Assembly: GCA_022768065.1 (NCBI GenBank) | Contig: JALELS010000014.1 | Span: 104,448-168,447 of the forward strand | Direction: 5' to 3' | DNA length: 64,000 nt | DNA from: Ruminococcus sp. | GTDB taxonomy: Bacteria; Bacillota; Clostridia; Oscillospirales; Acutalibacteraceae | In this document: positions 5,060-57,083 of the stretch, piece after piece | How the letters are laid out: each line of letters opens with the position of its first letter | Numbering within the stretch: the stretch's first letter is position 1 | Notes under the pieces: generated by a model | Databases searched by the model: none | What the model was told of the DNA's origin: nothing | The model's input: the letters and a program-made list of their open reading frames with translations, nothing else | Translations under genes and position numbers: made by a program

Positions 5060-5067
5060 GTGTTTTT

Positions 5068-5213: not shown

Positions 5214-5215
5214 CG

Positions 5216-6700: not shown

Positions 6701-7438
6701 TTAAGTTTCGCCTTTTTTCAGAGATTTTATATACTCTGTATCCTTTTTTGAAAGTTTAGCCGACGAGAGAAGTTCGGGGCGCTTCAAAAGCGTTGTTTCA
6801 AGCGCTTTTTCGTGACGCCACTTATCAATATTTGCGTGGTGCCCCGATAAAAGTATATCGGGAACCTTTACCCCGTGCCATTCATACGGTCTTGTATACT
6901 GCGGATATTCCAAAAGTCCGTTGTAATGACTTTCAAGCTCCTTTGCCTCGTCATTCGGCAGGACGTTATCAATCATACGCGAAATACTGTCGGCAAGTAC
7001 AAGTGCAGGCAGTTCACCGCCGGTCAGAACATAATCGCCTATTGAAATCTCTTCATCGACTATCTCGTCGAGGATTCTCTGATCCACACCCTCATAATGA
7101 CCGCAAAGCAGCACAATATGGTCTGTAAGGGCGAGTTCCTTTACTCTCTGCTGAGTCAAAGTTTTGCCCTGCGGCGACATATATATGAGATGCGGCTTTT
7201 TTTCTTCGTCGCCGTAAAGGCTCTTATAGCAGTCATATATGGGCTGAGGGCCCATCAGCATACCCATTCCGCCGCCGTACGGCGCGTCATCTACGCGGTT
7301 GTGTTTATCAAGTGTAAAGTCCCTTATGTTTACACAGTTTATCTCTACATATCCGTTTTTTCGTGCTCTGCCTATAATACTTTCGGACAGCACCGACTCG
7401 CACATTTCGGGGAAAAGCGTCATTATATCTATTTTCAT
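6701..7438 (-). CDS. trmD: tRNA (guanine37-N1)-methyltransferase
   Basis: MKIDIMTLFPEMCESVLSESIIGRA...YEGVDQRILDEIVDEEISIGDYVLTGGELPA. Confidence 0.96.
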   Translation of the reverse strand: MKIDIMTLFPEMCESVLSESIIGRARKNGYVEINCVNIRDFTLDKHNRVDDAPYGGGMGMLMGPQPIYDCYKSLYGDEEKKPHLIYMSPQGKTLTQQRVKELALTDHIVLLCGHYEGVDQRILDEIVDEEISIGDYVLTGGELPALVLADSISRMIDNVLPNDEAKELESHYNGLLEYPQYTRPYEWHGVKVPDILLSGHHANIDKWRHEKALETTLLKRPELLSSAKLSKKDTEYIKSLKKGET

Positions 7439-7977
7439 TCTCCGTCCTCCCTTATAACGCACTCGTCCGAGAAAAGCCCCTTGAGCGGACGGAGATACAC
7501 TTTTTCGTTTTCGACATCAAGCTTAACTACCACTAAGGGAATTACGGGAACCAACGTCTCTTTTCCGTTTTTATCTTTTACCGACCAAACGTCGTTTGCA
7601 ACGCCCTTAATAACATCGGTAACGGTTCCGTACAGGATATCGGTATTATCCGCGTCGTACACGGAGCAGCCGATTACGTCCCCAACGAACGCTTTACCGC
7701 TGTCAAGTGAAACATCTTTACGGTCAAAATACAATATTTTGCCGCGATAACGCTCGGCATCCTCAATACTGAGTACACCCTGCAGCTTTAACAGCGCTAT
7801 ATTTTTATGAGGGCGCACGGAAACAACGCCGACCGCCTGCCTGCCGTCGGCATTAAGATACAATGTTTTGATTTTTTTCAGGAAGTCTGCGCCGTCGCAC
7901 CATACGTCAAAGCGCATTTCGCCCCTGACGCCGTGCATACCTACCACTTTGCCTGCCTCAAGAAATTGTTTTAACAT
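7435..7977 (-). CDS. rimM: Ribosome maturation factor RimM
   Basis: EAGKVVGMHGVRGEMRFDV...LIPVIPLVVVKLDVENEKVYLRPLKGL; overlaps trmD. Confidence 0.92.
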   Translation of the reverse strand: MLKQFLEAGKVVGMHGVRGEMRFDVWCDGADFLKKIKTLYLNADGRQAVGVVSVRPHKNIALLKLQGVLSIEDAERYRGKILYFDRKDVSLDSGKAFVGDVIGCSVYDADNTDILYGTVTDVIKGVANDVWSVKDKNGKETLVPVIPLVVVKLDVENEKVYLRPLKGLFSDECVIREDGE

Positions 7978-8055
7978 AAATTCACCGATTACCGTTTTAA
8001 AACGGCACTAAATAAAATGAGTACAAGAGGAAACTCCCCCTGTACTCGTTTACTG

Positions 8056-8289
8056 TCAGTCGATCTCAACCTGAACTCTTGTGCCGTCTTTTGTGGCGCG
8101 AGCCTTAACAACGGTTCTGATAGCCTTGGCTATTCTGCCCTGCTTGCCTATAACTCTGCCCATATCATTTTCGGCAACGTGAAGGTGATATACCGTAACG
8201 CCTCTGTCATCAGGCTCATCTGCCGTAACGGAAACCGAAGCCGGATCATCAACGAGTCCCTTAGCGATCTGTTCGAGAAGTTCTTTCAA
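8056..8289 (-). CDS. khpA: KH-domain RNA-binding protein KhpA (YlqC)
   Basis: MKELLEQIAKGLVDDPASV...ENDMGRVIGKQGRIAKAIRTVVKA; GxxG KH motif, between rimM and rpsP. Confidence 0.9.
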   Translation of the reverse strand: MKELLEQIAKGLVDDPASVSVTADEPDDRGVTVYHLHVAENDMGRVIGKQGRIAKAIRTVVKARATKDGTRVQVEID

Positions 8290-8304
8290 CTAAAAGACCT
8301 CCTA

Positions 8305-8550
8305 TTATTTAATGATTCCGCTCTGCTTTAATACAGATTTAGCGGTCTCTGTGGGCTGAGCGCCGTTTTTGAGCCACTGCTCTGCCTTTTCAGCGTCAAT
8401 CTTGATCTCTGCCGGAGACTTCATAGGATCAAAAGTACCTATCTCTTCGATAAATCTGCCGTCACGCGGAGCTCTTGAATCTGCAACAACTACACGATAG
8501 AAAGGAGCCTTTTTAGCGCCTACACGACGAAGTCTGATTTTTACTGCCAT
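8305..8550 (-). CDS. rpsP: 30S ribosomal protein S16
   Basis: [38 protein letters not shown]. Confidence 0.97.
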
Positions 8551-8618
8551 TGTTTTTTCCTCCAAGTATATAATAATTAAATTTATAAACTACACTTATA
8601 AAGTGCGATTAACAAAAA

Positions 8619-9959
8619 TTACATTCCGTATTTGCCGAAGTTGCCCATCTTGCTGAAGCGGCGGCGTGCGGATTTTGAATTGAACTGCTTAAACAGCTTT
8701 TGCATATCGCGGTACTGCTTTAAAAGCTTATTGACATCCTCAACCTGCATACCGCATCCGGCGGCAATTCTGCGCTTACGCGACGGATTTATTATGTCGG
8801 GGTTTGCGCGCTCCTTATATGTCATTGAATAGATTATTGCCTGAACGCGGTCAAACTGACTTTCATCTACGTCCATATCTTTTATCTTACTGCCGACACC
8901 GGGGAGCATACCGAGCAAATCTTTCATAGAGCCCATTTTGCGCACCTGCTGGAGCTGTGACAGAAGATCGTTTAAATCGAACTTGTTTTTTCTGAGCTTT
9001 TTTTCGAGTTCGGCGGCTTTCTTTTCGTCAAGAGCCATTTCGGCTTTTTCGATAAGCGAAAGCATATCGCCCATTCCGAGAATTCGAGAAGCCATACGGT
9101 CGGGGTGGAAACAGTCAAGCTCCGTGAGCTTTTCGCCCATACCGACAAACTTTATGGGTTTGCCCGTAACCGCTCTCGCAGAGAGCGCCGCGCCGCCTCT
9201 TGTATCACCGTCAAGCTTTGTAAGCACCATACCGTCGATACCGAGCGCATCATCAAATGCGCTTGCCACCGTAACGGCGTCCTGACCGGTCATAGCGTCC
9301 ACAACGAGAAGAATCTCGTGGGGGTGAACCTCGGCTTTTATGTTTTTAAGCTCGTTCATCAGCGTTTCGTCTATATGCAGACGACCTGCCGTATCTATAA
9401 AAACGTAGTCATAGCCCTTATCTTTGGCAAGTGAAACTGCGTCTTTTGCAATTTTAACCGGGTCGCCCTGACCCTCTTCAAACACGGGTACTCCCGCCTG
9501 CTCGCCGACTACCTGCAACTGCTTTATAGCTGCGGGACGGTACACGTCGCACGCTACAAGCAGCGGCCTGTGACCTTCGTTTTTGAGCTTTAATGCGATT
9601 TTTGCACAATGGGTCGTTTTACCTGAGCCCTGCAGACCGCACATCATAATTACCGTCGGTCCGTGTGAAGCGTATGCGAGCTTTGAGCCTGTTCCGCCCA
9701 TCAGCTCGGTCAACTCCTCGTTGACAATTTTTATAACCATCTGAGCCGGTGTAAGGCTCTCTAAAACGTGCGAGCCTATTGCGCGCTCGGTAACTTTATT
9801 TGTAAAGTCCTTTGCGACCTTATAGTTAACGTCCGCTTCAAGAAGAGCGAGACGAACTTCACGCATAGCCTCTTTAACGTCGCTCTCGGTAAGGTTGCCT
9901 TTGCTGCGAAGCCTTTTAAAAGCGGCTTCAAGTCTGTCTGATAATCCTTCAAATGCCAT
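8619..9959 (-). CDS. ffh: Signal recognition particle protein Ffh (SRP54)
   Basis: GLQGSGKTTHCAKIA, DTAGRLH, TKLDGDTRGGAALS and C-terminal M domain. Confidence 0.97.
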   Translation of the reverse strand: MAFEGLSDRLEAAFKRLRSKGNLTESDVKEAMREVRLALLEADVNYKVAKDFTNKVTERAIGSHVLESLTPAQMVIKIVNEELTELMGGTGSKLAYASHGPTVIMMCGLQGSGKTTHCAKIALKLKNEGHRPLLVACDVYRPAAIKQLQVVGEQAGVPVFEEGQGDPVKIAKDAVSLAKDKGYDYVFIDTAGRLHIDETLMNELKNIKAEVHPHEILLVVDAMTGQDAVTVASAFDDALGIDGMVLTKLDGDTRGGAALSARAVTGKPIKFVGMGEKLTELDCFHPDRMASRILGMGDMLSLIEKAEMALDEKKAAELEKKLRKNKFDLNDLLSQLQQVRKMGSMKDLLGMLPGVGSKIKDMDVDESQFDRVQAIIYSMTYKERANPDIINPSRKRRIAAGCGMQVEDVNKLLKQYRDMQKLFKQFNSKSARRRFSKMGNFGKYGM

Positions 9960-10432: not shown

Positions 10433-10996
10433 TTAGTTCTTCTTGGTTGTTCCGCCGCCCCAGTCAATGACGGCGTTCTTTGAAGGATCCCAATTGGGAT
10501 CGGTGGTTGCAGGCGCCGTTGTAGGCTTTGCAGTAGGCTCGGTAGGCTTCGTAACGGGTTCGGTGGGTTTAGTTACAGGCTCCGTGGGCTTCGTAACCGG
10601 CTCGGTGGGTTTAGTTACGGGCTCGGTGGACTTCGTAGTATTTTCCGTTGTCGATTCCGTTGTTTCTTCGGTTGTCGGCTCCGAAACGGACGAAGTCTCT
10701 TTTGCCGTAGTCTCGGCATCGGGAACTTTGAGCCCTGCCGCTATACGCAAAATATAGACGGCGTCGCACGAATCGACTTTGCCGTCGCCGTTTAGATCGG
10801 CTCTTTTGATTTCATTTTCCGCAAGTTTTGTAAGGCCTGCGTCATATTTCATAACAAGCAGAGCGTCTGCCGAATCGACCTTACCGTCGCCGTTCACATC
10901 TCCGCGAGTTTTGCCGTCGCCTGCAGCGTAAACCATTACCGCCGCGATTGACAGAAGCATTACCGCCGCAGATAAAATGCTGAATAACCTTTTCAT
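10433..10996 (-). CDS. Secreted protein with N-terminal type I dockerin, TKPTEPV-repeat linker and AVIDW tail
   Basis: Signal peptide; DVNGDGKVDSADALLVMKYDAGL / DLNGDGKVDSCDAVYILRIAAGL dockerin repeats; 7-aa TKPTEPV repeats; ends NAVIDWGGGTTKKN. Confidence 0.85.
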   Translation of the reverse strand: MKRLFSILSAAVMLLSIAAVMVYAAGDGKTRGDVNGDGKVDSADALLVMKYDAGLTKLAENEIKRADLNGDGKVDSCDAVYILRIAAGLKVPDAETTAKETSSVSEPTTEETTESTTENTTKSTEPVTKPTEPVTKPTEPVTKPTEPVTKPTEPTAKPTTAPATTDPNWDPSKNAVIDWGGGTTKKN

Positions 10997-11013
10997 TTTA
11001 GCTCCTTCGCCGA

Positions 11014-11418
11014 TTATCGGGCGCTCCAATCAATAACTGCGGCATTGCTTTCGTCCGCCGGATCGCCGGTTCCTATTTTTACGGTGCTGCCCGCTTTTTT
11101 TGTAGTGGAATCATTCTTCTTTGTGGGCTTATCTTCGCCGTTCGGCTCGGTCTCGGCAGCTTGCTCGGAGGTTTTGGTTATAAGATCGTCGTAGAACTCA
11201 ACCGAACCGTCCTTGCCGGTGGTTACGGGAATAAGCTCGCCGTTTATGTTTGTGACGAATTTTTCACCCGATTCGTCGGTTGTGTATTCAATAGATGTTG
11301 TTTCGGATTGTGCGGCGGTCGTATCGTCTTTTTCCCAATCCCTCTTTTTTCCGCAGGAAATAAACACTACCGCAATCATAAGTATTAAAAGTGAAGCGGC
11401 GATAATTTTCTTGTTCAT
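11014..11418 (-). CDS. Small putative lipoprotein ending in AVIDW tail
   Basis: MNKKIIAASLLILMIAVVFISC lipobox-like; low-complexity Thr/Lys; ends ESNAAVIDWSAR. Confidence 0.7.
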   Translation of the reverse strand: MNKKIIAASLLILMIAVVFISCGKKRDWEKDDTTAAQSETTSIEYTTDESGEKFVTNINGELIPVTTGKDGSVEFYDDLITKTSEQAAETEPNGEDKPTKKNDSTTKKAGSTVKIGTGDPADESNAAVIDWSAR

Positions 11419-38545: not shown

Positions 38546-41500
38546 TTATGCATTGGCATTATATTTGCCTGCAATAACAAGGTCAAGTACGGAGGCGTCG
38601 GAAAGATCGACAACACCGTCCCCGTTGAGGTCCGCAGCGGCAAGCTGATCATCGGTAAGAGTTATAATACCGAGTGAATAATATACAATGAGGTCGTAGT
38701 CTGTTCTGTCGGCTACGCCGTCGTCATTTACATCGCCGAACGGACGTATTTTTACCTGTACGTTGAATTCACTCTTATCGCTGACAAGACCCGAACCGCT
38801 GACAGCACGGAATTTATAATTGTATGTTCCGTTGCCGTTTGTGGTGAGAGTGCTGCCCTCAATATTTGTCCACTCTCCTCCGTTAAGCGAATACTGATAT
38901 TTAACGCCCGACGAAGCCGAAGAGCTGAGAGTAAATGTCACATCCTGCCTTACAAGCGAACCGGAAGCCACATTTTCTTCACCGCAAGCCGCCGTTACCG
39001 TAACGTCCGTCGGAACGCTCTTATCAATCATAACGTCTATGCCGTCCGAAATATCGCTCTCAATACCCGCTTTATTAACGGCTTTGAATTTATAAGTCTT
39101 ATTGCAGTTTTCGGCGATATTGAGAACGCTGCCGTTCATCTCTTTAAAGCCCGAACCGTCGTCATAGTAATATGTAACGCCTGTATTGCTTGTGGCCGAG
39201 AGAACTATTGTAACATCGCCGCTTGTCCACTCGCCTGTTTTACCGTAAGAAGATACGGTAAGCACGGGTTTATCGCCGTCGATATTTGTAACCGTAAATA
39301 TCTTTGTTGCAACTCTGCCGTTTTTGCCTACTACGGTAAATACGTATGTACCGTTCTGTGACACGGTGTAAGAGTCTTCATTGGTTATATCCTGACCGTT
39401 GCAGGTAACCTCGCGAAGTCCCGACTCGCCGACCTCGGTGCTTATATTTATCTTATAGGGATTAGGAGTTACATCGGTAACCTCGGGGGTAAGAGTTATT
39501 TCGGGAACTTTGGCGTCGATCATAACGTGGTAGCTGTCCGACGGATAGCTCTCGGTGCCTGCGTTATTTACGGCTTTAAATCTGTAAACGGCGTTTGTTG
39601 TATCGGTTATCTCAATGCTCGTGCCGCTGTCGATAAGAGTCCAGCCGTTTCCGTTGTCATAATAATAGTTAATACCGGAAAGAGAAGCTTCCTCGGTAGA
39701 GAAGTTGAATGTAACGCCTTCACCCGTCCATCTGCCGAAGGTACCCTCGAACGAGACGCGGATAACAGGCACCTGACGGTCTATCTTAACCGTAAACGCG
39801 GTGACGTTGCTCTCAAGAGCTGCATAGCTCTCGGCCTTAAATTCGTATTTATGCTCACCTGTTTCGGTTGCGGTAAAGGTATTGCCCGAAAGCTCCTGCC
39901 ATTCGCCGCCGTCAATGCGGTAATAATATTTGTAAATTCCCGAATAAGCCTCGGAGGAAAGAGTTATATTTACATCTGTTGCACTCCAAGCACCCTCTTG
40001 ATATTCCTTATCACCGCCGTATACAGCGGAAACAGTAACATCGGTGGGAGCCGTACCGTCTATAACCACGCCGTCCGAACGAAGTATCGCGGAAACATTG
40101 CCTGCCTTATCGGTAGCTCTTGCCTCTACAAAGCCCTTGAAATCGGGGTCTTTAGCCGGTTTGTTTTCGCTGTCGTAGACGCTCCAGTCGGAGCCGGTCG
40201 GCTGACCGTTTTCATCTACAAAGCGATATTCAATTTTGTCTATTCCCGATACGCCCTCATCCGACGCATCAACGGTAATTTCAACAGTCTTGTTAAAGAA
40301 TCTGCATAAAGTGTCCGCCTTGCTGAAGAAGCTTCCGGAAACCTCTCTTGCGACACCGCCTATGTCCTTATGTAAAACGGTTATGCTGTTTACGGTGGGA
40401 GCAATTTTATCGATATTGTTTATAACGATGCTTTCTTCTGCCGTAAGGCCGTTACCCGCAGTTACAACTACGTTGTAGGTTCCGTTCTCAGCAACGGTAA
40501 ACGAATCATGAGAAGCGGTTATATCCTCACCGTTTAATGTAACGGAGGCTATTCCCGAAGCGCCTACATTAAGACTTCCTATTGTAACATCATAGCCCTT
40601 ATTTGTAAGCTCGGTTACGGCGGGAGTAAGAGTGAACGAAGGCTCTATATCATCACGCATAACGGTGTAGCCCTCTGTGTAATCGCTCTCAATGCCCTTT
40701 GAATTTACAGCCTTAAAATAATATGTATCGCTGCTGTTCACATTTACGGTAAGCGTGTTGCCTTCCAATGGTGCTTCTACGCCTGCGGAATCGGTTTTAA
40801 AGTAATACTTAACTCCGTCAAGCTCGTGAGTCGATGAAAGAGTAAAGGTTACGTCCTTGCTTGTCCAGCCGCCGTTATAATCGCCTTTATCAACGCTGAC
40901 AACGGGTTTACCGTATACAATTACGGGGAATGTAGCCGAAGCGCTGCGCCCCGCATGTGTGTATGTAACGGTTATATTCTGCTCTACGTCGTAAAGCTCC
41001 GGGTCAAATGACGATGTGTCGACCGTATAATCGGTGACGTATTCGGACTCGGCGTTGCTGTAATTCGCCTTGACTTTAAGTCCCGAAAGGTCAAGGGTTT
41101 TGTCACCCTCAAGGTAATCTTTTTTCGGATTTTCAAGCTCTATTGAAGTTACCGCTTTAGAGCGAACCGTTATCGGGAATATTGCGTGGTATGTTTTACC
41201 AGCTCTTACCACGTTTACTATAATATACTGCTCGGAATCGAGTATCGAAGTATTTACCGTGCTTACCGTGTAATCGGTTACCGGTACGGAAAGCTGATCG
41301 TCGGTATAGGCGTTTGCCGCCTCTTCGCCGTAATATTCGGCAATATCAGCACGGTTATATGTAAGCTTAACCTCCATACCCGTGAGGTCAAGCTCTGTGT
41401 TGCCCTCTATATAATCGGTCTTAGTGGGAGCGGTGAACGCTATGCTCTGCGGCTCTACCTCAACTACGGTGATATCCTTTTGGGTCTCGACATATGCGCC

Positions 41501-43573
41501 GTCAACCTTTGTAACGCCGTTTCTGCCGAATGCGTGAAGTGTTGTCTCACCTGCCGAAATACCCGTAACAACACCGTTTGAATCAACGGAAGCGAACTCA
41601 TTTTTCTGGTTTACGTCGCCGATATTCCAGTCCGAAACCCAGGGAGCCGATCCGTCATCTTTATTAAGACCCCAACGCTGCTTGTCAACCGAAATTCTCT
41701 CGGGAGAGAATGTAGCGGTGTAGGTAACCGGGAAATCCTTAATTACATAGTCGTTTCCGGTTATTGTAACGCCTGTGAGGTGTCTTATGGAATTACCGCG
41801 TACAGTTATCTCTACGGATTTTGAAACGCTGCCTATGGTTGCGGTTATCGTAACCTTTTTGTTGTTCCAAATAGCCGTTCCGCCCGAATCAAGACCTTTT
41901 ACAAGACCGTTTGCATCGACCGTGGCTATTGACGGGTCGGATGAAGTCCAAACGACTGTTCCGAGGAGTGCTTTGTCATAATCCGACGGCGCTATGTTTG
42001 CAATTGCAAGCTGTGTGGTCTTGCTCTCGTTAACGGTAGTGCTTCCGCTGATACTGAAGTCGGTTATAGCTTTACCCGCGGTTACCGTAAGAGAATCCTC
42101 AACGGTTTTATCGTTAAGAGTTGCCCTTACGTGAATTTCGCTTATACCGCTTGACTTCGGTGTGAATACACCGTCCGATGTGAGCGTAGCGAGCTTTGTC
42201 TCGGCGGGAGCCGAAGAAGAAGCCCAAATTATCTCGTTTGTATCGGGATCTGTAAGACCCCACTCACTTTTAACCGACGAGTTGGTATTAAGCCTTGACG
42301 GTAATACGTTTGCCTTGTAAGTGGTTGACGTATCATTCGGTACGGCGCTGTTTCCCTCAATTTCAACGGAGGAAATAGTGCCGACTACGCCGGCTCTTGT
42401 TACCTTTATCGTGACGTTTTTGGAAACGCCGCCCGCGGTTGCTGTAAGAGTTGTGGATTTGCTGTATTCGATAAGTCCGTCACCGCCGTCAAGGCCGGTA
42501 ACCGTACCGGACGCGTCAACTACGGCAATAGATTTATCTGCTATTTCCCATGTAAGGTCGCCTGCATAAGCGCCTGCGGGAACAACATTTGTTATTGCGA
42601 GCTGAGTTGTAGAGCCTTCGCCTACGGATACGGTTGAATCGGTTACGGTTTTTGTACCGCTTATAATATCAAAGGATTCTACGGGAAGATCTTTCTGTTC
42701 AACTACATTAAATGTGATGGTATCAACAAAAGCTACATTGCTCGCATCATATGCCCTGACCGTTACCGAACCTGCCGCAGTAAATGTGACAAGACCCGTA
42801 TCGGAAACCGTTGCGCGCTTACCCGAGCTTGTGTCAAAAATGCTTCCGCCCATTTCCCATTTAACGGAATGTTTAAGTCTTACGGGAGTTACCGCACCGT
42901 AAAGCTGAACTGTTTTGCCTACGGCAACGGTAATGGGAACGCTCTTTTTATTGGTTATGTGCGTACCGGTGGGAAGAACGTTTGCGACAACGCTCTTTTG
43001 AACCTTAACCTTAATGGTGTCGCTTGCAAGCTTTGCGCCGTTTGCATCATATATGGTAGCCGTTATCTCTACATTCATATTGGCAAGGGCTGTGGCAAGA
43101 CTGTCTGCAAGAGTATCGCCTGCAATACCTCTGACGATGGAGACTATCATATCGTCATTCATACTGTCAAGATCAACGCCGGAGCTTTCAAGCTGTTTCA
43201 TAATCTCGTCTGCCATTTTGTCGCCTACGAGAGGAAGCACACGCACGTTTTCATCAAGCCAAAGCTGAATTATCGCCGTTTTTGACGAATCATACGCCGT
43301 GACCTTTCCGTTATCGTCAACATCGGCAAGAAGAGGTAAGTTACTCACCCACGTTACCGTAGTACCCTCCGGTAAGTCGCCGGTAGTTGTGTACTTGAGC
43401 TGAAGAGTTTTGTACTCCGTGAGCTGCTGAATGTCTGTGATGTCATTTCCGCTCTCATCCGTTATGTTAAGCGTAACTCCTGCCGCGTAGCTCACAAGAG
43501 CCGACGGTATCAGAGTAAGTAACATAAGGACAGACAGTATGACGCTCAAAAGCTTGGTTAATGTTTTTTGCAT
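38546..43573 (-). CDS. 1675-aa secreted multi-Ig-like (Big_2-like and FN3/Ig-like repeats) protein with C-terminal dockerin
   Basis: Signal peptide; repeated Ig-like units (TTQLAITNVVP...DLTWEIADKSIAVVDASGTVTGLD; repeated GGWTSKDVTFTLSS...YYF...YYFKAVNSKGIES); C-term GDVNDDGVADRTDYDLIVYYSLG...ADLNGDGVVDLSDASVLDLVIAGKYN. Confidence 0.88.
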   Translation of the reverse strand: MQKTLTKLLSVILSVLMLLTLIPSALVSYAAGVTLNITDESGNDITDIQQLTEYKTLQLKYTTTGDLPEGTTVTWVSNLPLLADVDDNGKVTAYDSSKTAIIQLWLDENVRVLPLVGDKMADEIMKQLESSGVDLDSMNDDMIVSIVRGIAGDTLADSLATALANMNVEITATIYDANGAKLASDTIKVKVQKSVVANVLPTGTHITNKKSVPITVAVGKTVQLYGAVTPVRLKHSVKWEMGGSIFDTSSGKRATVSDTGLVTFTAAGSVTVRAYDASNVAFVDTITFNVVEQKDLPVESFDIISGTKTVTDSTVSVGEGSTTQLAITNVVPAGAYAGDLTWEIADKSIAVVDASGTVTGLDGGDGLIEYSKSTTLTATAGGVSKNVTIKVTRAGVVGTISSVEIEGNSAVPNDTSTTYKANVLPSRLNTNSSVKSEWGLTDPDTNEIIWASSSAPAETKLATLTSDGVFTPKSSGISEIHVRATLNDKTVEDSLTVTAGKAITDFSISGSTTVNESKTTQLAIANIAPSDYDKALLGTVVWTSSDPSIATVDANGLVKGLDSGGTAIWNNKKVTITATIGSVSKSVEITVRGNSIRHLTGVTITGNDYVIKDFPVTYTATFSPERISVDKQRWGLNKDDGSAPWVSDWNIGDVNQKNEFASVDSNGVVTGISAGETTLHAFGRNGVTKVDGAYVETQKDITVVEVEPQSIAFTAPTKTDYIEGNTELDLTGMEVKLTYNRADIAEYYGEEAANAYTDDQLSVPVTDYTVSTVNTSILDSEQYIIVNVVRAGKTYHAIFPITVRSKAVTSIELENPKKDYLEGDKTLDLSGLKVKANYSNAESEYVTDYTVDTSSFDPELYDVEQNITVTYTHAGRSASATFPVIVYGKPVVSVDKGDYNGGWTSKDVTFTLSSTHELDGVKYYFKTDSAGVEAPLEGNTLTVNVNSSDTYYFKAVNSKGIESDYTEGYTVMRDDIEPSFTLTPAVTELTNKGYDVTIGSLNVGASGIASVTLNGEDITASHDSFTVAENGTYNVVVTAGNGLTAEESIVINNIDKIAPTVNSITVLHKDIGGVAREVSGSFFSKADTLCRFFNKTVEITVDASDEGVSGIDKIEYRFVDENGQPTGSDWSVYDSENKPAKDPDFKGFVEARATDKAGNVSAILRSDGVVIDGTAPTDVTVSAVYGGDKEYQEGAWSATDVNITLSSEAYSGIYKYYYRIDGGEWQELSGNTFTATETGEHKYEFKAESYAALESNVTAFTVKIDRQVPVIRVSFEGTFGRWTGEGVTFNFSTEEASLSGINYYYDNGNGWTLIDSGTSIEITDTTNAVYRFKAVNNAGTESYPSDSYHVMIDAKVPEITLTPEVTDVTPNPYKINISTEVGESGLREVTCNGQDITNEDSYTVSQNGTYVFTVVGKNGRVATKIFTVTNIDGDKPVLTVSSYGKTGEWTSGDVTIVLSATSNTGVTYYYDDGSGFKEMNGSVLNIAENCNKTYKFKAVNKAGIESDISDGIDVMIDKSVPTDVTVTAACGEENVASGSLVRQDVTFTLSSSASSGVKYQYSLNGGEWTNIEGSTLTTNGNGTYNYKFRAVSGSGLVSDKSEFNVQVKIRPFGDVNDDGVADRTDYDLIVYYSLGIITLTDDQLAAADLNGDGVVDLSDASVLDLVIAGKYNANA

Positions 43574-47831: not shown

Positions 47832-48311
47832 TTATTTGTCAACTACTGCTGCTGTGAAGGTAACGGTAGCATCGCTGTAATCGGTGATGGTAGCGTTCCA
47901 AGCTGCTGCTGCAACGTCAACATTGATGGTGTAATCCTGGTCAACTACCTCGGCAGCAGTCTTAACAGAAGTGTCGCCGCTGAAGGTGTAAGGAATGGTA
48001 TAGCCGTTATCGGTAGCGGGTTTCATTTTGCCGTCGGCAGAAGCAACCGAAACGGAAAGGCGTTTGTCAGTCTTGAGAGTTGACTTAACGTTGTAAGTGA
48101 AAGCTGTGGTCGTAGCGCCCCATTTAACGCTCATTTCAGCAGGATATTCTACTGTGAAATAGCCGTCTGCGGGAACATTTGTTGTATCGGTCTTAACGGT
48201 TGCAGTACCTTTGCCGTCCGCTGTATCCTGAGTGATTGTAGCTGCAAAGGACGGAACGGAAACTGCTGCGAGCATAGCTGCCGCAAGAACTATTGAAAGT
48301 AACTTTTTCAT
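47832..48311 (-). CDS. Small secreted beta-rich protein, paralog 6 of tandem array
   Basis: MKKLLSIVLAAAMLAAVSVPSFAA; FTVEYPAEMSVKWGATTTAFTYNVKSTLK...IPYTFSGDT...YSDATVTFTAAV. Confidence 0.87.
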   Translation of the reverse strand: MKKLLSIVLAAAMLAAVSVPSFAATITQDTADGKGTATVKTDTTNVPADGYFTVEYPAEMSVKWGATTTAFTYNVKSTLKTDKRLSVSVASADGKMKPATDNGYTIPYTFSGDTSVKTAAEVVDQDYTINVDVAAAAWNATITDYSDATVTFTAAVVDK

Positions 48312-48339: not shown

Positions 48340-48813
48340 TTAAGCTATCGCTTCAACCGAAGCGGTAAAGGTAAGAGTATCTTCATACTCATCAATGGAA
48401 ACAGATTCCCAATTTTCCTTAGTAATATTGACATTTACCGAATATGCACTGTCGGTAACTGTTTCGTGACCGGTTGTTATGTTTGTATCACCGGCTATGG
48501 TATAAGGAAGAAGTCTGCCGCCGCCTGTATGGAGATTTGCATTGTCCTGAACCACAGTAACGCGAAGGTTATTGCCGCTCACAAGCGTACTCGATACAGT
48601 ATAGCCGATTTCGGTACTTTCGGTGCCCCAATAAATTGTGGTTTCTGCGGGATAAGAAACGGTAAACGAACCGCTTATTCCGCTTCTGTCGGTAACTACG
48701 GAAGAGTTACCGACGCCACCGGAAGTAGACTGGTCTATTGTAGCAGCAAAAGCGGGAACCGATATAGCCAAGAGCATTGCTGCCGCAATGACTATTGAAA
48801 TAAATTTTTTCAT
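48340..48813 (-). CDS. Small secreted beta-rich protein, paralog 5 of tandem array
   Basis: FTVSYPAETTIYWGTESTEIGYTVSSTLVSGNNLRVTV...LPYTIAGDT...YEDTLTFTASVEAIA. Confidence 0.87.
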   Translation of the reverse strand: MKKFISIVIAAAMLLAISVPAFAATIDQSTSGGVGNSSVVTDRSGISGSFTVSYPAETTIYWGTESTEIGYTVSSTLVSGNNLRVTVVQDNANLHTGGGRLLPYTIAGDTNITTGHETVTDSAYSVNVNITKENWESVSIDEYEDTLTFTASVEAIA

Positions 48814-48850: not shown

Positions 48851-49357
48851 TTAGATTGTAGCAGGACCTATCGAAACTGTAAGGGTAAGATTGCCCTCAT
48901 ACTCATCAACCGGAACCTTTGCCCAATCGGCTGCAGCAATATTTATTGCAGCGTTAACATCTTCACCTGCAACAACAGCAGATGCTGAAGTGTAAGCTGT
49001 GGTGCCAGCTACGCTGAAGGGAAGAGTGGCGGTGTTGCCGGATGCGTTAGCCTTGAGGTCGGTTGTGCCGGCTTCTTTTTCTACCGTAACATTGAGACGA
49101 TCGTTTGATTTAAGCTGGCATTTTACGTTGTAAGTAAAGTCAGTGCTCTCTGTGCCCCAGTAAATTGTGGTCTCTGCCGGGAAAGTTACTGTGTAAGATG
49201 TAGCCTCGGGACCGTCGGGACCGGTTTTAGTGGAAGTAATAACCTTAGCACGATCCGATGTATGGTCGCTTGTGAGAACTTTGTCTTCTGCAAAAGAAGG
49301 AATCGCCACAGCCAAGAGCATTGCTGCCGCAAGAGCTATTGAAAGTAATTTTTTCAT
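48851..49357 (-). CDS. Small secreted beta-rich protein, paralog 4 of tandem array
   Basis: STKTGPDGPEATSYTVTFPAETTIYWGTESTDFTYNVKCQLKSNDRLNVTV...YEGNLTLTVSIGPATI. Confidence 0.87.
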   Translation of the reverse strand: MKKLLSIALAAAMLLAVAIPSFAEDKVLTSDHTSDRAKVITSTKTGPDGPEATSYTVTFPAETTIYWGTESTDFTYNVKCQLKSNDRLNVTVEKEAGTTDLKANASGNTATLPFSVAGTTAYTSASAVVAGEDVNAAINIAAADWAKVPVDEYEGNLTLTVSIGPATI

Positions 49358-49378: not shown

Positions 49379-49873
49379 TCAGTCAGCGTTAACGGTGAAA
49401 GTAAGAGTATCGCTGTATTCACCGACAATAGCGTTGTTCCAAGCGTCTGCGGGAACGGTTACTTTAAGAGCAAGGTCTTTTGCGGGATTGATAACGGGGC
49501 TTGAAGCCTCAAAAGCTGTGTCGCCCGAAAGAGTGTAGCTGAGAGTTTCGTTGCTGTCTTCAGCGAGTTTCATTGAGCCTGTGCCTGCAACGGTGATTTT
49601 GAGCTTCTGACCGTATTTAAGGTGAGACTCAGCAGTAAAGCCGGTAAGGTCGGTCTCTTCGGTGCCCCAGTAAATTGTGGTGTCAGCCGGAATTGTAACG
49701 GTGTATTTAACAGCGTCGTCTTCGGGCGAATCGGGGCCTGTTTTTGTGGAAGTCTTAACAATAGCCGTACCGGTATTGTCAGTCTCCTTGGTTATGGGAT
49801 TAGCTGCGAATGAGGGAACCGAAACTGCTGCGAGCATAGCCGCTGCAAGTGCAATTGAAATAAGTTTTTTCAT
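49379..49873 (-). CDS. Small secreted beta-rich protein, paralog 3 of tandem array
   Basis: STKTGPDSPEDDAVKYTVTIPADTTIYWGTEETDL...LSYTLSGDTAFEASSPVI...YSDTLTFTVNAD. Confidence 0.88.
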   Translation of the reverse strand: MKKLISIALAAAMLAAVSVPSFAANPITKETDNTGTAIVKTSTKTGPDSPEDDAVKYTVTIPADTTIYWGTEETDLTGFTAESHLKYGQKLKITVAGTGSMKLAEDSNETLSYTLSGDTAFEASSPVINPAKDLALKVTVPADAWNNAIVGEYSDTLTFTVNAD

Positions 49874-49896: not shown

Positions 49897-50406
49897 TTAA
49901 ACTTCAGCGGTGAAGGTAAGAGTGTCGTCGTAAACATCAACAACAGCCTTGTTCCAGTCTTCGCTGTTTATTGTAACCTTGAGGTTCTTGTCAACAGCCG
50001 GAGCTTCCTTGCTGCCGTAAATAACGGGGCTTGAAGCTTTGAATGCCGTGTCACCTGAAAGAGTATAGGGAAGAGTGTAAACTTCGCCTTTGGCGGCATC
50101 GGTCTTCATAGAGCCTGTGCCTGCTACGGTAACTTTGAGTGCCTGACCTCTCTTGAGGTGAGACTCAACAGAGTAAACGAGGTTTGTCTCTTCGGTGCCC
50201 CAGTAAATTTCTGTGTCGGCAGGAATTGTAACGGTGTATTTAACAGCATCATCCTCAGGCGAATCGGGGCCTGTTTTTGTAGATGTCTTAATTATGGTTG
50301 TGCCGGACTGTTCTGTATTTTTGGTTATGGGGTTAGCCGCAAATGCAGGAACCGAAACCGCTGCGAGCATAGCCGCTGCAAGTGCGATTGAAATAAGCTT
50401 TTTCAT
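49897..50406 (-). CDS. Small secreted beta-rich protein, paralog 2 of tandem array
   Basis: STKTGPDSPEDDAVKYTVTIPADTEIYWGTEETNL...LPYTLSGDTAFKASSPVI...YDDTLTFTAEV. Confidence 0.88.
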   Translation of the reverse strand: MKKLISIALAAAMLAAVSVPAFAANPITKNTEQSGTTIIKTSTKTGPDSPEDDAVKYTVTIPADTEIYWGTEETNLVYSVESHLKRGQALKVTVAGTGSMKTDAAKGEVYTLPYTLSGDTAFKASSPVIYGSKEAPAVDKNLKVTINSEDWNKAVVDVYDDTLTFTAEV

Positions 50407-50428: not shown

Positions 50429-50908
50429 TTACGCGTTGGTATATTCTGCCGTAAAGGTAAGAACATCGGTGTGCTCACCCGAAGCGGCTTTTTGCCATTC
50501 AGCCTCTGTGATGTTAACGGAGAGGTCATAAGACTTCATATAATCGCCCGGTAAAAACGCCATTTGCTCTGCGCCTGTAAGCGTGTAGGCGATAGTCTTT
50601 GAGCTGTCCAAAGTGTTGACAAGCTTTGAGCCGTTGAGCGACGAAACAGCCACCTTAACGGTCTTGCCGGGAGACAGCCACATTTTAGTTGCCGTAACCT
50701 TACCTATTGCGTAAGAAGTAGCTTCCCACGGTATTTCGGTATCGGCAGGAATTGTAAGCTCATACTCATCCTGTTTGCCCTCGCCGGTAGAAATCTTTAC
50801 GGAGCCTACGGGGTTCTCTTTGTTCAGCGTAGCCGGAGCCGCGAAAGACGGAACAGTCACGAGCGACAATAAAAGCACTGAGAGCAAAACTGATAATGTT
50901 TTCTTCAT
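50429..50908 (-). CDS. Small secreted beta-rich protein, paralog 1 of tandem array (most diverged)
   Basis: YELTIPADTEIPWEATSYAIGKVTATKMWLSPGKTVKVAV...IAYTLTGAEQM...HTDVLTFTAEYTNA. Confidence 0.85.
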   Translation of the reverse strand: MKKTLSVLLSVLLLSLVTVPSFAAPATLNKENPVGSVKISTGEGKQDEYELTIPADTEIPWEATSYAIGKVTATKMWLSPGKTVKVAVSSLNGSKLVNTLDSSKTIAYTLTGAEQMAFLPGDYMKSYDLSVNITEAEWQKAASGEHTDVLTFTAEYTNA

Positions 50909-50952: not shown

Positions 50953-53900
50953 TTAACCTTTAGTGTAATCTACGGTATAAGTAAGTGTAGTCGAATACTC
51001 GGCTATCGGAGCGTCCGTCCAACCGGAAATCGTCAATGACGGTTTTTGAGCAGGAAGCGCTCCCTCATTTTTACCTGTAAATTCTGTGGAAGTAAAGTTC
51101 TGTGAAGTATACGGAAGAGCGTATGTCGATGTTGCTGCATTGGTAAGAGTGTCATTTGCGACAGAAGCGCTGCGTGCTACGGAAACACCAATCTTGCTGC
51201 CCGAATCAAGTGAAGACGTAACCTTATAGGAAACATCAACGGCTTCCGTCTCGCCCCAAGGAACATCTATTTCCGCAGGAATTGTAACCTCAAAGAAGTC
51301 GTCTGCGGCAAAATGAATATTGATAGTTTTTCTGACAGGCTCGTTTGTTGTCTTGTCAACAGCAACCTCACCGGTAGCATTATCGATAAGCTCTATTGTA
51401 ATAACATCTTCACTCGTTACGGTAACGCCCGTGACGGTAAACGTAAAGTTTATTGCCTTGGGAGCTGCCGCCGAAGCGGTATTGTTTTCGATGTCCGCGG
51501 TTGTAGGAGAGTCTTTAAGAGCGCTTGCGTTTTCGGTCTTGTCAATTACGCCCGTCATAGCGACCGCATAATCGTGAACACCGTTCGCAGCGTCTTTAAG
51601 ACCGCCGTTCTGTGAAGTTACACGAAGTGTGTAATTTCCGTCCGGATAATCAACCGCATTGAGAAGATTAAATGTTGCGGTTCCTGTCGGAGCGTCTTTG
51701 TTGAGAGCGATGCTGTCTTTGTCTACTTCCGAAGAGAAGTGTGCAAAGAGACGAAGGGTATCGTTGATACCGTGGAGAGCTTCGTTCTCTGAAGAGCCGA
51801 CAGCGTTACCGTCGTTAAGCTCCTGAATATTATGGAAGCAGTTTATTAATGAATTGTATTCGTCAACCGCTTCGGTTATGGCGTCAAGGTCCTGAATACC
51901 GTTGCTGTCCATAGCACTCTTAACGGTGTTATAAAGAGCCGTGTATTTTTCTTCAAGACGAACAACGCCGCCTTTAACTGTCTTACCGGTGAAGTCATCG
52001 GTGTAAGTCTGAACATTGGCAAGTGCCTTCGGAACAGCGACTGCCGCTCTGCCGTAGCTTGTGTAAGCTGCGGGAAGAGAGCCGTCCTTGTTTCTGAGAA
52101 GAACCTTTGCATAATAATCAAGATCGGAGTATGAGGAGTTGTAGTCTTTAAGAGCGTCTAATGAAAGTTCATTATTCGCGTCCTTAGTAGGTACGAGTTT
52201 CAACTCTTCCGTAAGGTCGGTCTCGGTTCCTTTTACGGAATACATAGCGAGCAGCTTATCGCGAAGTCCGCTGAGACCTATTATATCGGAGCCCGAATCA
52301 CTCTTAAAGCCGTTACTGTATTCCTCAAGAAGTCTCAAGCGTTTTGCAGCCTTATAAGCATTTTCAAGCTTTTGGGCGTCCTCGGTGCCGAGTGCCGTGA
52401 GAGCTTCGTCGGTATAACGCTTATAGGATTTTTCGTACATATCTATTACTTCTTGTACTCCCTCGGCGGTGAGGCCGTAAGCGTCATAGTTTATAACAGC
52501 CTTTGTGCTGTCGTTCGGGTCGGTAATAAATCCGGGATACGGAAGGTCGTAATCGCCTGTTATCGAAGCTCCGGTCGCCTTAGAGGAAAGTGCCTCGATT
52601 TTGGTTTTAAGATCTGCCGGGATTATCTCGGCGTTATCAACGTCTTGCTCGATACCGTTGTTTATGTTCTGGTATTTAACAAGTACATTGTAAGCTCTTG
52701 TAACGGATTTGAGGCCCTTCTGATAATCGGTGAGCTTTGCATAAAGAGCAAGTGCAGCGTTTATCTTTTCGGTACGGGTATTTTTCTTGTACATATCAAT
52801 ATCCGATACCGCAGCTTCAAACTGAGCCGCCGTAAGAGACTTAACCTGCAGGAATTCATCAAATCCGGCGTCGGTTCTGCTGTTAACCTTGTCGCCGTAA
52901 TACGAACCCTGAGCATAGGTAAAGCCGATAGAGTCTATCGTGAAGGACTTACCGTCCATATTCTTGGCGGAAGCCTCCGAAACGGGAGCTACACCTATGG
53001 ATACACGGAAGATGTTGTTAAGTGCTTCGGCTTTTTCATCAAGACGATAGTTTGAAGATGCCGAAAGACCCTGAACACCTCTTCTGAACTGGAAGAGCGG
53101 TATCATGATATAACCCTTATAATTGTTGATGGTCATATCAACATTGCCGTCGCCGTTTGTATCTATACCGTATTCCGATGTATAGTTGTAAATTCTTCTT
53201 GCGCCCTCATTCTGAGCCGTGCACTTCGCCCACTCACCCGTAGTCGGGTTAATGATATAGAAGTAAGCGTTGTCAACGTCGCTGCCGGCGTCAAGCGTAT
53301 AGTCCTCGGCAGCACCGTCATAATAAGAACTGATGTTGAATGCCATGCTGAAGTCGGAAATCTGAGAGAAGTCCGCATAGAAGACAAGAGCCAAACGGTC
53401 TGTCTCGTTTACCTTATCGGACTTATTATAAGTATGAGCAAAATCACCGAGGCTTTCGGAAGACATATTGTTTGTGTTTCGTAAAGTCTCGTAAGTGTTT
53501 GCGTCGGTAAGGTTTTTGGTAACGCTTAAACCGTTGTACCAGCCTTTTTTACTCTCATAGTACTGGCTGTCAATCTTAACGGTAGCACCCTTAGAACCCT
53601 GAGCACCGCCGTTTGTAACGGTTGCCCATGCGGCGTTTTGTCTATACTCGGTAATACCGTTTCTCTGCGGGTCGTTACCGAGAGCACCCGACGGTATAAC
53701 CGTAGGCGTAGCAAGGTCTGTGCTGTGTGCGGAAATTGCCGCAAACGGAACCGTGTACGTCATAAATCCCTTTGTATAGTAGTAGTCGGAGCCGACCGTA
53801 CCTACACTCTTTGAGTTTTCAAACTGCCAAGCACGAGTGCCTGTTTTTAAATTATCAAAAGTAGCAAAGGGAATATACTTATTATTGGTAAGGCTCTGAC

Positions 53901-56238
53901 CTACAACGACCGAGTTATTCGCAAGTTCATTTTCCATATATTCAAAGTACTTGAGAATTTTTTCCTCTTCGGCTCTGCCGAGCATAGTAAGCTGACCTAA
54001 ATTAAGCTTTACATACATATTATATATACGCTTAATCTCTGCCTTTACTTCGTCGCTTACGGAAAGAGTTGTCTCATCGAAGTCGGGGAGCTTTTCAATG
54101 GATTTTGCGAGTGTCGGAATAATATCCTCTGCACCTGAGTTTTCCGAACCGTAAGTACCTGCATCCTGACAATCCTTTTTGGCGTCTTTAAACTTCTGCC
54201 ACGCCTCGGACATACCGAGCTCTGCGGCTTTAGCGTCAAGCTTGTCGTCATCAAGGAATGAAGCGTCTACAGTACCGCTGTTGGCGGCGTTATATTCTTT
54301 AACCGCCTTTTTATAACCTGCAATAAGATCCTCGATATATTTTACTGCGCGGAAGTCACCCCAGTCGGGGCTTTCAATGTACTTATCGCAAGCGTTAAAT
54401 ATAGCGCGCGGAATCTCATTTTCCTGGTCATAATAGTTTTTAACGGGTGAACCTGTGTTTGCGGTTCCGTTAATAGTATTGCTGCTGTACTCTTTACCGT
54501 CGGTACGATAGAAAAGTACGTTATCGAAGAATATGGATTTGCCGACGCTGCCGTCACGTGTTTCGAGAGTTGTCGAAGCCGTGTCATATGTGCAGCCCGT
54601 AAACTTAAAGCCGGCGGACATAAGGTCCTCAATAGCTTTGTAGCCGTTCTCACGGTTTACTACCGGATCTTCGCCTGTGCCGATTTTAGTCTTGTCGATA
54701 TATGCTCTTCTGGGAGTATCGGCTGTTGTTTTGCTGCCGTCCGAAGTAACAATACACGGAGCGAGCATCATACCGCCGTCAATATAATAACGACTTGTCA
54801 AACCTGATCTGTTAACGGTAAAGCCGTAATGCCTTACAAGCAAAGCATTTGATATTGAAGTTCCGGCAGGGTCAACAACTACCGACTGAGACAGCTTAAT
54901 TGTATCTTTGTAATAGCCGTCTGCTCTGTCTGCAGTACCTTGGTAACCGTATATGGGTTTTCCGTTATACTTCGGTTTGCTGACACCAAACTCGGTGTTT
55001 GAATCGGTAACAACAGAGTCGGTTTCGGAGCACATAAACTGAAGCGGTATACGGACATAGCCCTTGAAGTGGTCAAGGTCAACAGTACCGTCGTTAAGCA
55101 TAACCTTTTTCCAACTGCCGTCCTCCTGCTGCAGGAATATATAGGGGTCTTCACCCGTATAGCCTGCTTTGGTGGTACCGACCGTAGAATAGATTATGTC
55201 GCCGTATCTGTCGTATGCGTTTTTATTGCCATAGTCGTTATCGTAGTCCTGAACGAACCACTTATCGTTTGAACGAAGTCGGAACGAAAGACCGGTTACG
55301 CTGACCTGCGAAAAGTCGAGCCAATACCAAATCTCGGTAGCACCCGACGTGTCCCAAGTCTGACGGCTCCACGCGGTATCAAATGTCTGCGGATTGTCCG
55401 GCGTTACAGCCGACTCGATGCGCAAACGATAACCCTTTGTATCAACAGCACCGGCTGTCGGTGAATCCGCACCGACCTGAACCGTAGCACCGCCGTAAGA
55501 AAGATGTCCTCCCGACTGCATAAAGTCGAGCGAGCCTGTAGAACCGCGGGTATTATTATCGCTGTCCGTTCTTTCGCTTGTGCCGTAGTTCGAATAAGTA
55601 CCGTGACCGTCGCCCGAAGTGGCTCTGCCCTCAAACGTAAGAACCTCACGTGCGGCAAGCTCATTGTTTGTAACGGGAGCGTATGCGTCCTTATCATAGA
55701 CGTATACGGGAATATCCGAAACAAACGCGTTGAGAGTTTCAGAGAACCAACCCTCGCTGTCATATGCCGTTACCGACACATTGTAGCGGTGATTTTCCAA
55801 AAGCTTTCCGCCGCTTTCGTCGTAGCCGCTGAGGCCCTCGCCTATTCGTTTTTCGATTGCCTTACTGATTTCGTCTGCCGTAATCTCAGCCGTGTACGGT
55901 GCAGTACCGGTGGGACTAACCATCTTACGCAGCAAAATCGTGCTTGTGTGAACTTCGGTATATGTACCGAGATCAACAAGCTCTAACATATACCCTGACA
56001 CACTCTTGGCTGTTTTGCGGTTGCTTACTTTGGCTGCGGGGAAGCTGACCGTAATTCCGCCGTCATCGCCTAATACTGCCGATAAATCACTCTTGTCGTC
56101 TTCTGCAAAAGTGGGTACCGGATCATATGTGCCGGGGTCCTTTGCCAAGACAAGCGGCAACGATGTGACCAAAAGCACTACGCAAAGCAGCACAGCAGTT
56201 ATGCTTTTTCCGATTTTAATCTTTGAATTTTTTTGCAT
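50953..56238 (-). CDS. ~1760-aa secreted protein with duplicated beta-sandwich-like domains and a C-terminal domain related to the adjacent small secreted proteins
   Basis: Signal peptide; two DFSQ(V/I)S...GYxxIPLxF regions; helical linkers; C-term FEVTIPAEIDVPWGETEAVDVSYKVTSSL...APIAEYSTTLTYTVDYTKG. Confidence 0.85.
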   Translation of the reverse strand: MQKNSKIKIGKSITAVLLCVVLLVTSLPLVLAKDPGTYDPVPTFAEDDKSDLSAVLGDDGGITVSFPAAKVSNRKTAKSVSGYMLELVDLGTYTEVHTSTILLRKMVSPTGTAPYTAEITADEISKAIEKRIGEGLSGYDESGGKLLENHRYNVSVTAYDSEGWFSETLNAFVSDIPVYVYDKDAYAPVTNNELAAREVLTFEGRATSGDGHGTYSNYGTSERTDSDNNTRGSTGSLDFMQSGGHLSYGGATVQVGADSPTAGAVDTKGYRLRIESAVTPDNPQTFDTAWSRQTWDTSGATEIWYWLDFSQVSVTGLSFRLRSNDKWFVQDYDNDYGNKNAYDRYGDIIYSTVGTTKAGYTGEDPYIFLQQEDGSWKKVMLNDGTVDLDHFKGYVRIPLQFMCSETDSVVTDSNTEFGVSKPKYNGKPIYGYQGTADRADGYYKDTIKLSQSVVVDPAGTSISNALLVRHYGFTVNRSGLTSRYYIDGGMMLAPCIVTSDGSKTTADTPRRAYIDKTKIGTGEDPVVNRENGYKAIEDLMSAGFKFTGCTYDTASTTLETRDGSVGKSIFFDNVLFYRTDGKEYSSNTINGTANTGSPVKNYYDQENEIPRAIFNACDKYIESPDWGDFRAVKYIEDLIAGYKKAVKEYNAANSGTVDASFLDDDKLDAKAAELGMSEAWQKFKDAKKDCQDAGTYGSENSGAEDIIPTLAKSIEKLPDFDETTLSVSDEVKAEIKRIYNMYVKLNLGQLTMLGRAEEEKILKYFEYMENELANNSVVVGQSLTNNKYIPFATFDNLKTGTRAWQFENSKSVGTVGSDYYYTKGFMTYTVPFAAISAHSTDLATPTVIPSGALGNDPQRNGITEYRQNAAWATVTNGGAQGSKGATVKIDSQYYESKKGWYNGLSVTKNLTDANTYETLRNTNNMSSESLGDFAHTYNKSDKVNETDRLALVFYADFSQISDFSMAFNISSYYDGAAEDYTLDAGSDVDNAYFYIINPTTGEWAKCTAQNEGARRIYNYTSEYGIDTNGDGNVDMTINNYKGYIMIPLFQFRRGVQGLSASSNYRLDEKAEALNNIFRVSIGVAPVSEASAKNMDGKSFTIDSIGFTYAQGSYYGDKVNSRTDAGFDEFLQVKSLTAAQFEAAVSDIDMYKKNTRTEKINAALALYAKLTDYQKGLKSVTRAYNVLVKYQNINNGIEQDVDNAEIIPADLKTKIEALSSKATGASITGDYDLPYPGFITDPNDSTKAVINYDAYGLTAEGVQEVIDMYEKSYKRYTDEALTALGTEDAQKLENAYKAAKRLRLLEEYSNGFKSDSGSDIIGLSGLRDKLLAMYSVKGTETDLTEELKLVPTKDANNELSLDALKDYNSSYSDLDYYAKVLLRNKDGSLPAAYTSYGRAAVAVPKALANVQTYTDDFTGKTVKGGVVRLEEKYTALYNTVKSAMDSNGIQDLDAITEAVDEYNSLINCFHNIQELNDGNAVGSSENEALHGINDTLRLFAHFSSEVDKDSIALNKDAPTGTATFNLLNAVDYPDGNYTLRVTSQNGGLKDAANGVHDYAVAMTGVIDKTENASALKDSPTTADIENNTASAAAPKAINFTFTVTGVTVTSEDVITIELIDNATGEVAVDKTTNEPVRKTINIHFAADDFFEVTIPAEIDVPWGETEAVDVSYKVTSSLDSGSKIGVSVARSASVANDTLTNAATSTYALPYTSQNFTSTEFTGKNEGALPAQKPSLTISGWTDAPIAEYSTTLTYTVDYTKG

Positions 56239-56285
56239 AAACTGCAACTCCTTTCCTCAAAATCTGTATTTTGAAATATAGTTTC

Positions 56286-57083
56286 TTACGAAACCACGAT
56301 GGTCGTTTTTAAATCCATATTGTTAAGCTTACGCTGTTCTTTATCAAAGCTGTAAGTTTTAACATGGATTACGGCAGGATATGTTCCCGCCGCAAGTTCA
56401 CGGTTAAGCGTGAAATGCGATATTGAATAGCCTGGCGGCAAAAGGTTTGAAGTATATATAACCTCGCCCGAATTTGAAAGCTCTATTTCAATAACAAAGT
56501 AACAGGGATTTTCCTCGGGATTTGAGAATACAAAATCCTGCTCTTTGGTGTTTGCCGCCAAAGTAAGCTCCGGAATACCGTTTACCTTTATCTGCCTGCC
56601 CTTTGTATTTGTTTTGTCGGGAATAGAAAGCTCGCCCTCGCCGAGAACCGCGTTCTGGTCAATTACGCCTGCTGGAGCTGTGGTTTCTCCGCTGCCGCCG
56701 CCTGTCGGTATAACGGCTTTTAAAAGGAATATAAGCCCTATTATAAGAGCCGCTATCAAAAGCGCAAACAAAAGCCAGAGCAAAAGTCTGTCGCGGACTA
56801 TCGCGATAAATTTGTCTGCCTCTACCTCTATGTAACCTACTACCGCCGAATGAGGCATTTTCGTTGCGGCGTATACTTTTTCGCTGTTTCCGTCATCAGA
56901 CAGCAAGTTGCCGATTTCGCGTTTGCCCTTGCCTATTTGGCCTACAACCATATATCCGCCGGACGGATAACGCGACTCAATTTCTTTCTTTTTAAAATAA
57001 GGCACGGTAAAGCCGCTGTGGCTGTTTTTGTAAACACCCTCGCCGACGGCCCCCGCAAGATGCCGGAACGTAAGATCTGCCAA
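56286..57083 (-). CDS. Membrane protein with single internal TM and C-terminal beta-sandwich-like domain, unknown function
   Basis: RLLLWLLFALLIAALIIGLIFLLKAVIP TM; NPEENPCYFVIEIELSNSGEVIYTSNLLPPGYSISHFTLNRELAAGTYPAVIHV; first gene of the surface-protein operon. Confidence 0.8.
   Translation of the reverse strand: MADLTFRHLAGAVGEGVYKNSHSGFTVPYFKKKEIESRYPSGGYMVVGQIGKGKREIGNLLSDDGNSEKVYAATKMPHSAVVGYIEVEADKFIAIVRDRLLLWLLFALLIAALIIGLIFLLKAVIPTGGGSGETTAPAGVIDQNAVLGEGELSIPDKTNTKGRQIKVNGIPELTLAANTKEQDFVFSNPEENPCYFVIEIELSNSGEVIYTSNLLPPGYSISHFTLNRELAAGTYPAVIHVKTYSFDKEQRKLNNMDLKTTIVVS

Follow-up and report, generated by a model that had tools for sequence, protein, structure and literature searches.

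Clusters of the csc/WxL kind, for which our comparison is drawn from PMC1534035 and PMC9772566, combine four types of gene, all of them coding for surface proteins: a small WxL protein, a large WxL protein, the WxLIP and an LPXTG mini-protein (CscA-D). The csc/WxL proteins are proposed to attach to peptidoglycan via a common C-terminal domain (PMC9772566, PMC10599100), and in an AlphaFold2 prediction a hairpin of the WxLIP completes the WxL sandwich (PMC10599100). In Siezen 2006 (PMC1534035) csc genes were absent from clostridia. Three further systems are relevant for comparison: the chaperone-usher pili (Fim, Pap, Csu), the TasA/TapA fibres of Bacillus subtilis, in which beta-sandwiches are strand-exchanged, and the sortase-polymerised pili of the SpaA type. 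Here we describe an operon from a Ruminococcus genome that shares features with each of these systems.

The window analysed is a stretch of 64,000 nucleotides of Ruminococcus sp. (contig JALELS010000014.1, positions 104,448 to 168,447), from an assembly (GCA_022768065.1) of 1.92 Mb in 32 contigs. On its minus strand lie, in this order, the genes for a membrane protein (TM265, 56286-57083), a large secreted protein of 1764 aa with a signal peptide (BIG, 50953-56247; TTG start, with an ATG at codon 4), seven small subunits and a C-terminally anchored protein (P402, 46055-47263). The small genes run from S7, which adjoins the BIG gene (50429-50908), through S6 (49897-50406), S5 (49379-49873, its product 72% identical to S6), S4 (48851-49357), S3 (48340-48813) and S2 (47832-48311) to S1, which adjoins the P402 gene (47309-47788). 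Intergenic gaps within this array measure 21-45 bases, about 530 bases lie ahead of TM265, and a perfect inverted repeat of 14 pairs, identified by pattern match, is situated just 3' of P402 (46000-46030), where it probably marks the operon end. Because of the gene order, the short gaps, the long gap before and the repeat after, we read TM265 to P402 as one operon. From translations read by eye, we take the upstream flanking genes to be hemW and lepA and the downstream ones metA and prfB. The window also holds, near the operon (38546-43573), a secreted protein of 1675 aa that contains Ig-like repeats and, C-terminally, a dockerin-like segment (DVNDDGVADRTDYDLI...DLNGDGVVDLSD). A further secreted protein, of 198 aa (10433-11029), has a dockerin-like repeat (GDVNGDGKVDSADALLVMK) together with a PTEPVTKPTEPV tail.

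An earlier note on this DNA, which covered BIG and the small proteins only, had claimed that the C-terminal domain of BIG is the same domain as that of its small secreted neighbours; TM265 and P402 were brought into the analysis here. The claim was borne out by BLASTP and HMM comparison for seven of seven small proteins, and at the level of sequence the likeness is one of homology, not chance. The check that the note had proposed, an HMM comparison of residues ~1640-1764 with the small proteins, gave a significant match: a profile built from the seven small proteins only found the shared domain, hereafter the S domain, in BIG residues 1638-1762 (50962-51336, minus strand) with 59.5 bits and E 2e-19. 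In BLASTP searches with the whole of BIG, S1 was the best of the seven (43% identity over 112 aa, E 3e-14) and the other six followed at E 1e-4 to 1e-7, with S7 at 1e-4. The C-terminal sequence quoted earlier is present at the end of the 1764-aa reading frame, with FFEVTIPAEI from residue 1651. The placing of the domain at 50953-51320 needs small corrections: it reaches about 15 bases past 51320 and starts one strand earlier, with KTINIHFAADD N-terminal to the quoted segment. No Pfam or NCBIfam domain was found in BIG, the S domain belongs by sequence to no family in Pfam, NCBIfam or PDB, and sequence searches of the same three resources with the small proteins and TM265 gave no match above the cut-off. 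The Pfam family matched by most S members was SCPU, weakly and by 3 of 55 (E 0.13). No description of the S-domain family was found in the open-access literature.

The order TM265, BIG, S genes, P402 is kept in about 18 loci with differing flanking contexts, as seen in neighbourhoods from relatives that include Candidatus Fimenecus excrementavium and Ruminococcaceae UBA3329 and UBA7217. Large homologues of BIG, 1362-1877 aa in length, occur in 17 further loci (one is cut by a contig end), and in all 18 large proteins, the BIG of the window included, the small-protein profile ends 1-6 residues before the C-terminus. Within the genus, 28 of 40 genomes have S-domain profile matches, about 21 of the 40 have at least five, and operons carry up to about ten small copies. 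TM265 homologues adjoin the large gene in relatives wherever the contig extends far enough, and of 20 loci sampled across the order, 17 have an S-domain gene next to the TM265-family gene, mostly 7-76 bases downstream of it. The TM265 family was found in 39 of 297 genomes of the order, in 7 others of the 300 genomes of a phylum-wide sample (at least two of which match its N-terminal part only), on the Ruminococcus albus plasmid pRUMAL01, in Listeria monocytogenes and in Enterococcus. The Listeria and Enterococcus clusters combine the membrane protein, at least one small secreted version of the S domain and a small sortase-signal protein with a surface protein of the BspA/LRR type that has a version of the domain at its end. 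These large proteins of Bacilli match the profile weakly (E about 1e-2 to 1e-5), and the match depends in part on aligning them by eye. On these profile and neighbourhood data, gut Clostridia have the S-domain operon as a conserved unit, and more diverged forms of it are present in other Clostridia, Listeria and Enterococcus.

The passengers joined to the S domain vary and include BspA-type LRR, beta-helix-like, RCC1-like and ubiquitin domains. One such protein, RUMAL_RS21475 of the R. albus 7 plasmid pRUMAL01 (locus L098, 12388-13128), consists of a signal peptide, a ubiquitin domain (residues 27-102) that is very similar to the ubiquitin of eukaryotes, and then the S domain, and a similar fusion is found in locus L059 (15490-16188). 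In some relatives (L098 and L111) the S domain stands at the N-terminus of a longer protein, so that a C-terminal cap is not a general rule. A constant S domain under changing passengers is what would be expected of an anchor, and the main rival to the assembly proposed below, which was the other option in the earlier note, is that S is a wall-binding module with which BIG and each small protein separately bind peptidoglycan or a wall polymer, sharing a ligand and forming no polymer. The attachment proposed for the matching csc/WxL clusters, by a common C-terminal domain (PMC9772566, PMC10599100), speaks for it too. It leaves unexplained, however, why so many small copies stand in tandem without any passenger, why they form position-specific clades and why the operon has a separate C-terminally anchored protein, and we consider common anchoring a possible account with clearly less than an even chance.

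The position-specific clades were seen in a tree of 83 S domains, 15 of them from BIG proteins. Fourteen of the 15 BIG domains group together (support 76/98), nine small genes that adjoin BIG form one clade (99/99), to which S7 of the 'first' class belongs, and 8 of 15 'last' genes, S1 among them, fall into one group with two others (97/79). The middle class, S2 to S6 in the window, is divergent and varies in number between genomes. Operon position thus predicts subunit type, as would be expected of an ordered assembly, and the classes are position-specific, as in pilus operons. Divergence and variable number are also what would be seen if the tandem small genes were a reservoir of antigenic or ligand-binding variants on a conserved fold and the BIG domain a fossil of fusion that has no present interaction. 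Against such a reservoir, 18 of 18 large proteins retain the fusion at their very C-terminus, and in Listeria, Enterococcus and other families, too, large proteins carry a particular version of the domain at their end; we think a reservoir very improbable. Homology together with position-specific classes in a conserved operon fits the reading of the domain as capping a polymer, one of those offered in the earlier note, better than coincidence, as judged from sequence comparison.

The mature S6 subunit was modelled with AlphaFold2 from 54 homologues (mean pLDDT 93.0, pTM 0.79). A Foldseek search of the PDB with this model gave many chaperone-usher pilins, whose assembly is by strand exchange, and adhesin pilin domains among the best matches, none of the matches being below E 1e-3; the best pilin was CsuE (E 2.8e-3, TM 0.51), and CfaB, FimG, FimA, PapK, PapA and the PapG pilin domain were also present. 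When the S profile was compared with pilins of E. coli K-12, the result was not significant (probability 2%), a profile of five K-12 Fim pilins gave no match, and an 18-pilin profile matched weakly at the last strand only. As the sequence profiles do not confirm a link to pilins, the likeness is one of fold alone and possibly convergent: the modelled S subunit resembles chaperone-usher pilins at fold level only. Residues 11-20 of the model, immediately ahead of the core, are without strand.

For TM265, AlphaFold2 predicts an N-terminal cytosolic beta domain (1-98), a TM helix (100-124), a disordered linker and an Ig-like ectodomain (~164-265), in a model built from 11 sequences with mean pLDDT 77 and pTM 0.41, the ectodomain mostly at 71-93. 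Fold matches of the ectodomain are mixed Ig folds, including carbohydrate-binding modules, PsaA and the chaperones FimC, DraB and PapD. Compared with the N-domain of PapD/FimC, a likeness first spotted by eye, the ectodomain scored 25.9, where the highest of 30 shuffles reached 16.4, at a probability of 20%. The N-terminal domain (here taken as residues 1-99, 56787-57083) matches stand-alone proteins of ~115 aa in distant genomes of the phylum (G617 and G693, E about 1e-9) and therefore seems to be a domain of its own; it is absent from the Bacilli versions.

P402 consists of a signal peptide, an N-terminal beta domain, a Pro/Thr linker, a second domain, a C-terminal hydrophobic helix and a basic tail, with a degenerate, non-canonical sorting signal (NPVISKTGE). 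C-termini of its family in relatives include IPNTSA, FPNTDA and IPMQTGE, and clear LPxTG-like mini proteins occur in Listeria and Clostridia relatives. Two minimal loci, L117 and L122, contain only a TM gene, one S gene and a mini anchor protein (QGETTFSFTFEEEEESVPVPDTGD and QSATSFSFTLPKEEQTPVPDTAD) whose mature part is little beyond one strand before the sorting signal. Loci of this composition favour a small defined complex, in which BIG, the small proteins and TM265 would be stoichiometric, as proposed for CscA-D, and TM265 would complement S by a strand, with no long polymer; the predicted WxLIP hairpin completing the WxL sandwich (AlphaFold2, PMC10599100) points the same way. Such a complex is hard to square with the number of small genes, which in operons of the genus can reach about ten, and we hold it to be unlikely.

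Mature subunits start with a strand ahead of the core strand YTVTIPA, and the corresponding strand of BIG (KTINIHFAADD) is internal, directly after the preceding domain. N-termini of subunit and anchored protein are similar in locus L060 (STLITTTISPTFTVTVP and ATKISVTVPEYHSVTGE, respectively) and in E. raffinosus (EEQSTELTVEIPSE and QDQSVDLTLTIPAE). In a position test on 26 loci, the anchor N-terminus had its best match within the first 42 residues of the subunit in 20, where 7.4 would be expected; most single-locus shuffle p values are above 0.1, the loci are related and some matches take in leftover signal peptide. In the locus of the window the best P402 match was not within the first 42 subunit residues. 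A WxL cluster on an E. mundtii plasmid has a similar N-terminal likeness (SEGSIGFTGTYE and TTSGQVTFTPNIE), and in csc/WxL clusters (L131, positions 1404-9864, of E. mundtii pLDW-8, L135 and L138) what looks like a common short strand stands at the N-terminus of both the LPXTG mini-protein and the small WxL protein, with the pairs SEGSIGFTG / TTSGQVTFT and YDSNGVTAF / YTSNGAVEF; in L138 the shared strand was not seen in the position test. Such a strand might explain the role of the CscD protein.

The locus resembles csc/WxL clusters in its set of four all-surface gene types: a small protein made of a single domain, a large protein that carries this domain C-terminally, a membrane-anchored Ig-like protein and, with P402 as the candidate, a small sortase-anchored one. 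On the E. mundtii plasmid both systems stand side by side. They differ in the TM helix, N-terminal in TM265 but C-terminal in WxLIP, and in copy number, since operons of this genus have many small copies and a csc cluster typically has two WxL proteins. The WxL motif pair was found in 0 of 55 S sequences, the WxL domain was not among the Pfam matches listed for these proteins and was absent from the whole genome, and profile comparison of S with 11 WxL sequences gave a probability of 4.5%, the shuffle-control maxima being left out, one shuffle having an unexplained outlier score of 132, possibly a parsing fault. Neither DUF916 nor DUF3324 had a Pfam match in TM265, DUF916 was absent from the whole genome and the WxLIP profile comparison was not significant. 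Membership in the WxL family was rejected for want of the motif pair, the WxL domain and a significant profile match. The S operon works most like csc/WxL but lacks its defining domains, and we therefore regard it as a variant of that kind, not a member.

With chaperone-usher pili the operon shares multiple subunits in ordered classes and a large protein ending in the subunit domain, as FimH does, and the fold predicted for its subunits may be the incomplete Ig fold of pilins. It differs in having no two-domain periplasmic chaperone and no significant sequence-profile link from S to pilins, and the usher (PF00577) is absent from the genome, with a positive E. coli control. Like TasA/TapA, it has Gram-positive secreted beta-sandwich subunits, a possible N-terminal donor strand and a possible dedicated strand-giving starter. 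Camelysin/Peptidase_M73 (PF12389) had no Pfam match in the subunits and was absent from the genome (B. subtilis control positive), on which TasA identity was rejected; TasA was also absent from the best 50 fold matches listed for the S6 model. We know of no large capping protein bearing the TasA domain. Sortase-polymerised pili have in common with the locus Gram-positive tandem surface genes and a sorting-signal-like C-terminus on one protein. No LPxTG was found in 55 subunit sequences and no sortase gene was seen in the S operon; as the subunits have no LPXTG, a pilus of this type was rejected. Three sortase matches lie elsewhere in the genome (G000:C23, L065-L067), two of them close together.

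We propose, with a confidence that goes no further than even, that the products of the operon form a csc-like assembly on the cell surface, held together non-covalently by strand complementation, with BIG as terminal cap and the anchored protein as base. The small proteins would be secreted pilin-like beta-sandwich subunits, in which the free N-terminal strand of one probably completes the sandwich of the next, non-covalently; strand exchange, polymerisation and polarity would all belong to this model. BIG would be a display or binding protein fused C-terminally to one subunit. Because its equivalent strand is internal, BIG would accept a strand and give none, and may thus cap the far end, as FimH does. 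The anchored protein would donate the final strand and fix the assembly to the cell; in several relatives its mature N-terminus is similar to the subunit N-strand. The Ig-like ectodomain of TM265 may be an assembly factor, keeping hold of each subunit until it is joined to the next. Signal peptides and anchors are present, and beyond these a surface location is presumed. The strand-complemented assembly is in line with the knowledge on TasA/TapA (PMC9674648, PMC10151520) and with the WxLIP-hairpin prediction (PMC10599100). A more specific version, which we offer tentatively and hold less probable, is an usher-less Gram-positive pilus: donor-strand exchange of pilin-like subunits, a membrane-tethered single-domain PapD-like chaperone, a large binding protein at the tip and a sortase-anchored peptide of nearly a single strand at the wall. 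Its logic, if true, would also explain the unexplained LPXTG mini-proteins (CscD) of csc/WxL clusters.

The operon is a conserved, putative surface-assembly operon of gut Clostridia that has no Pfam or NCBIfam model and no solved relative by sequence, and its interchangeable passengers suggest a general display platform. If strand exchange is true, it would represent, next to TasA, another fibre or display system of Gram-positive bacteria, linked to the csc/WxL clusters, and would suggest a testable function for mini-proteins that, once mature, are essentially a single beta-strand.
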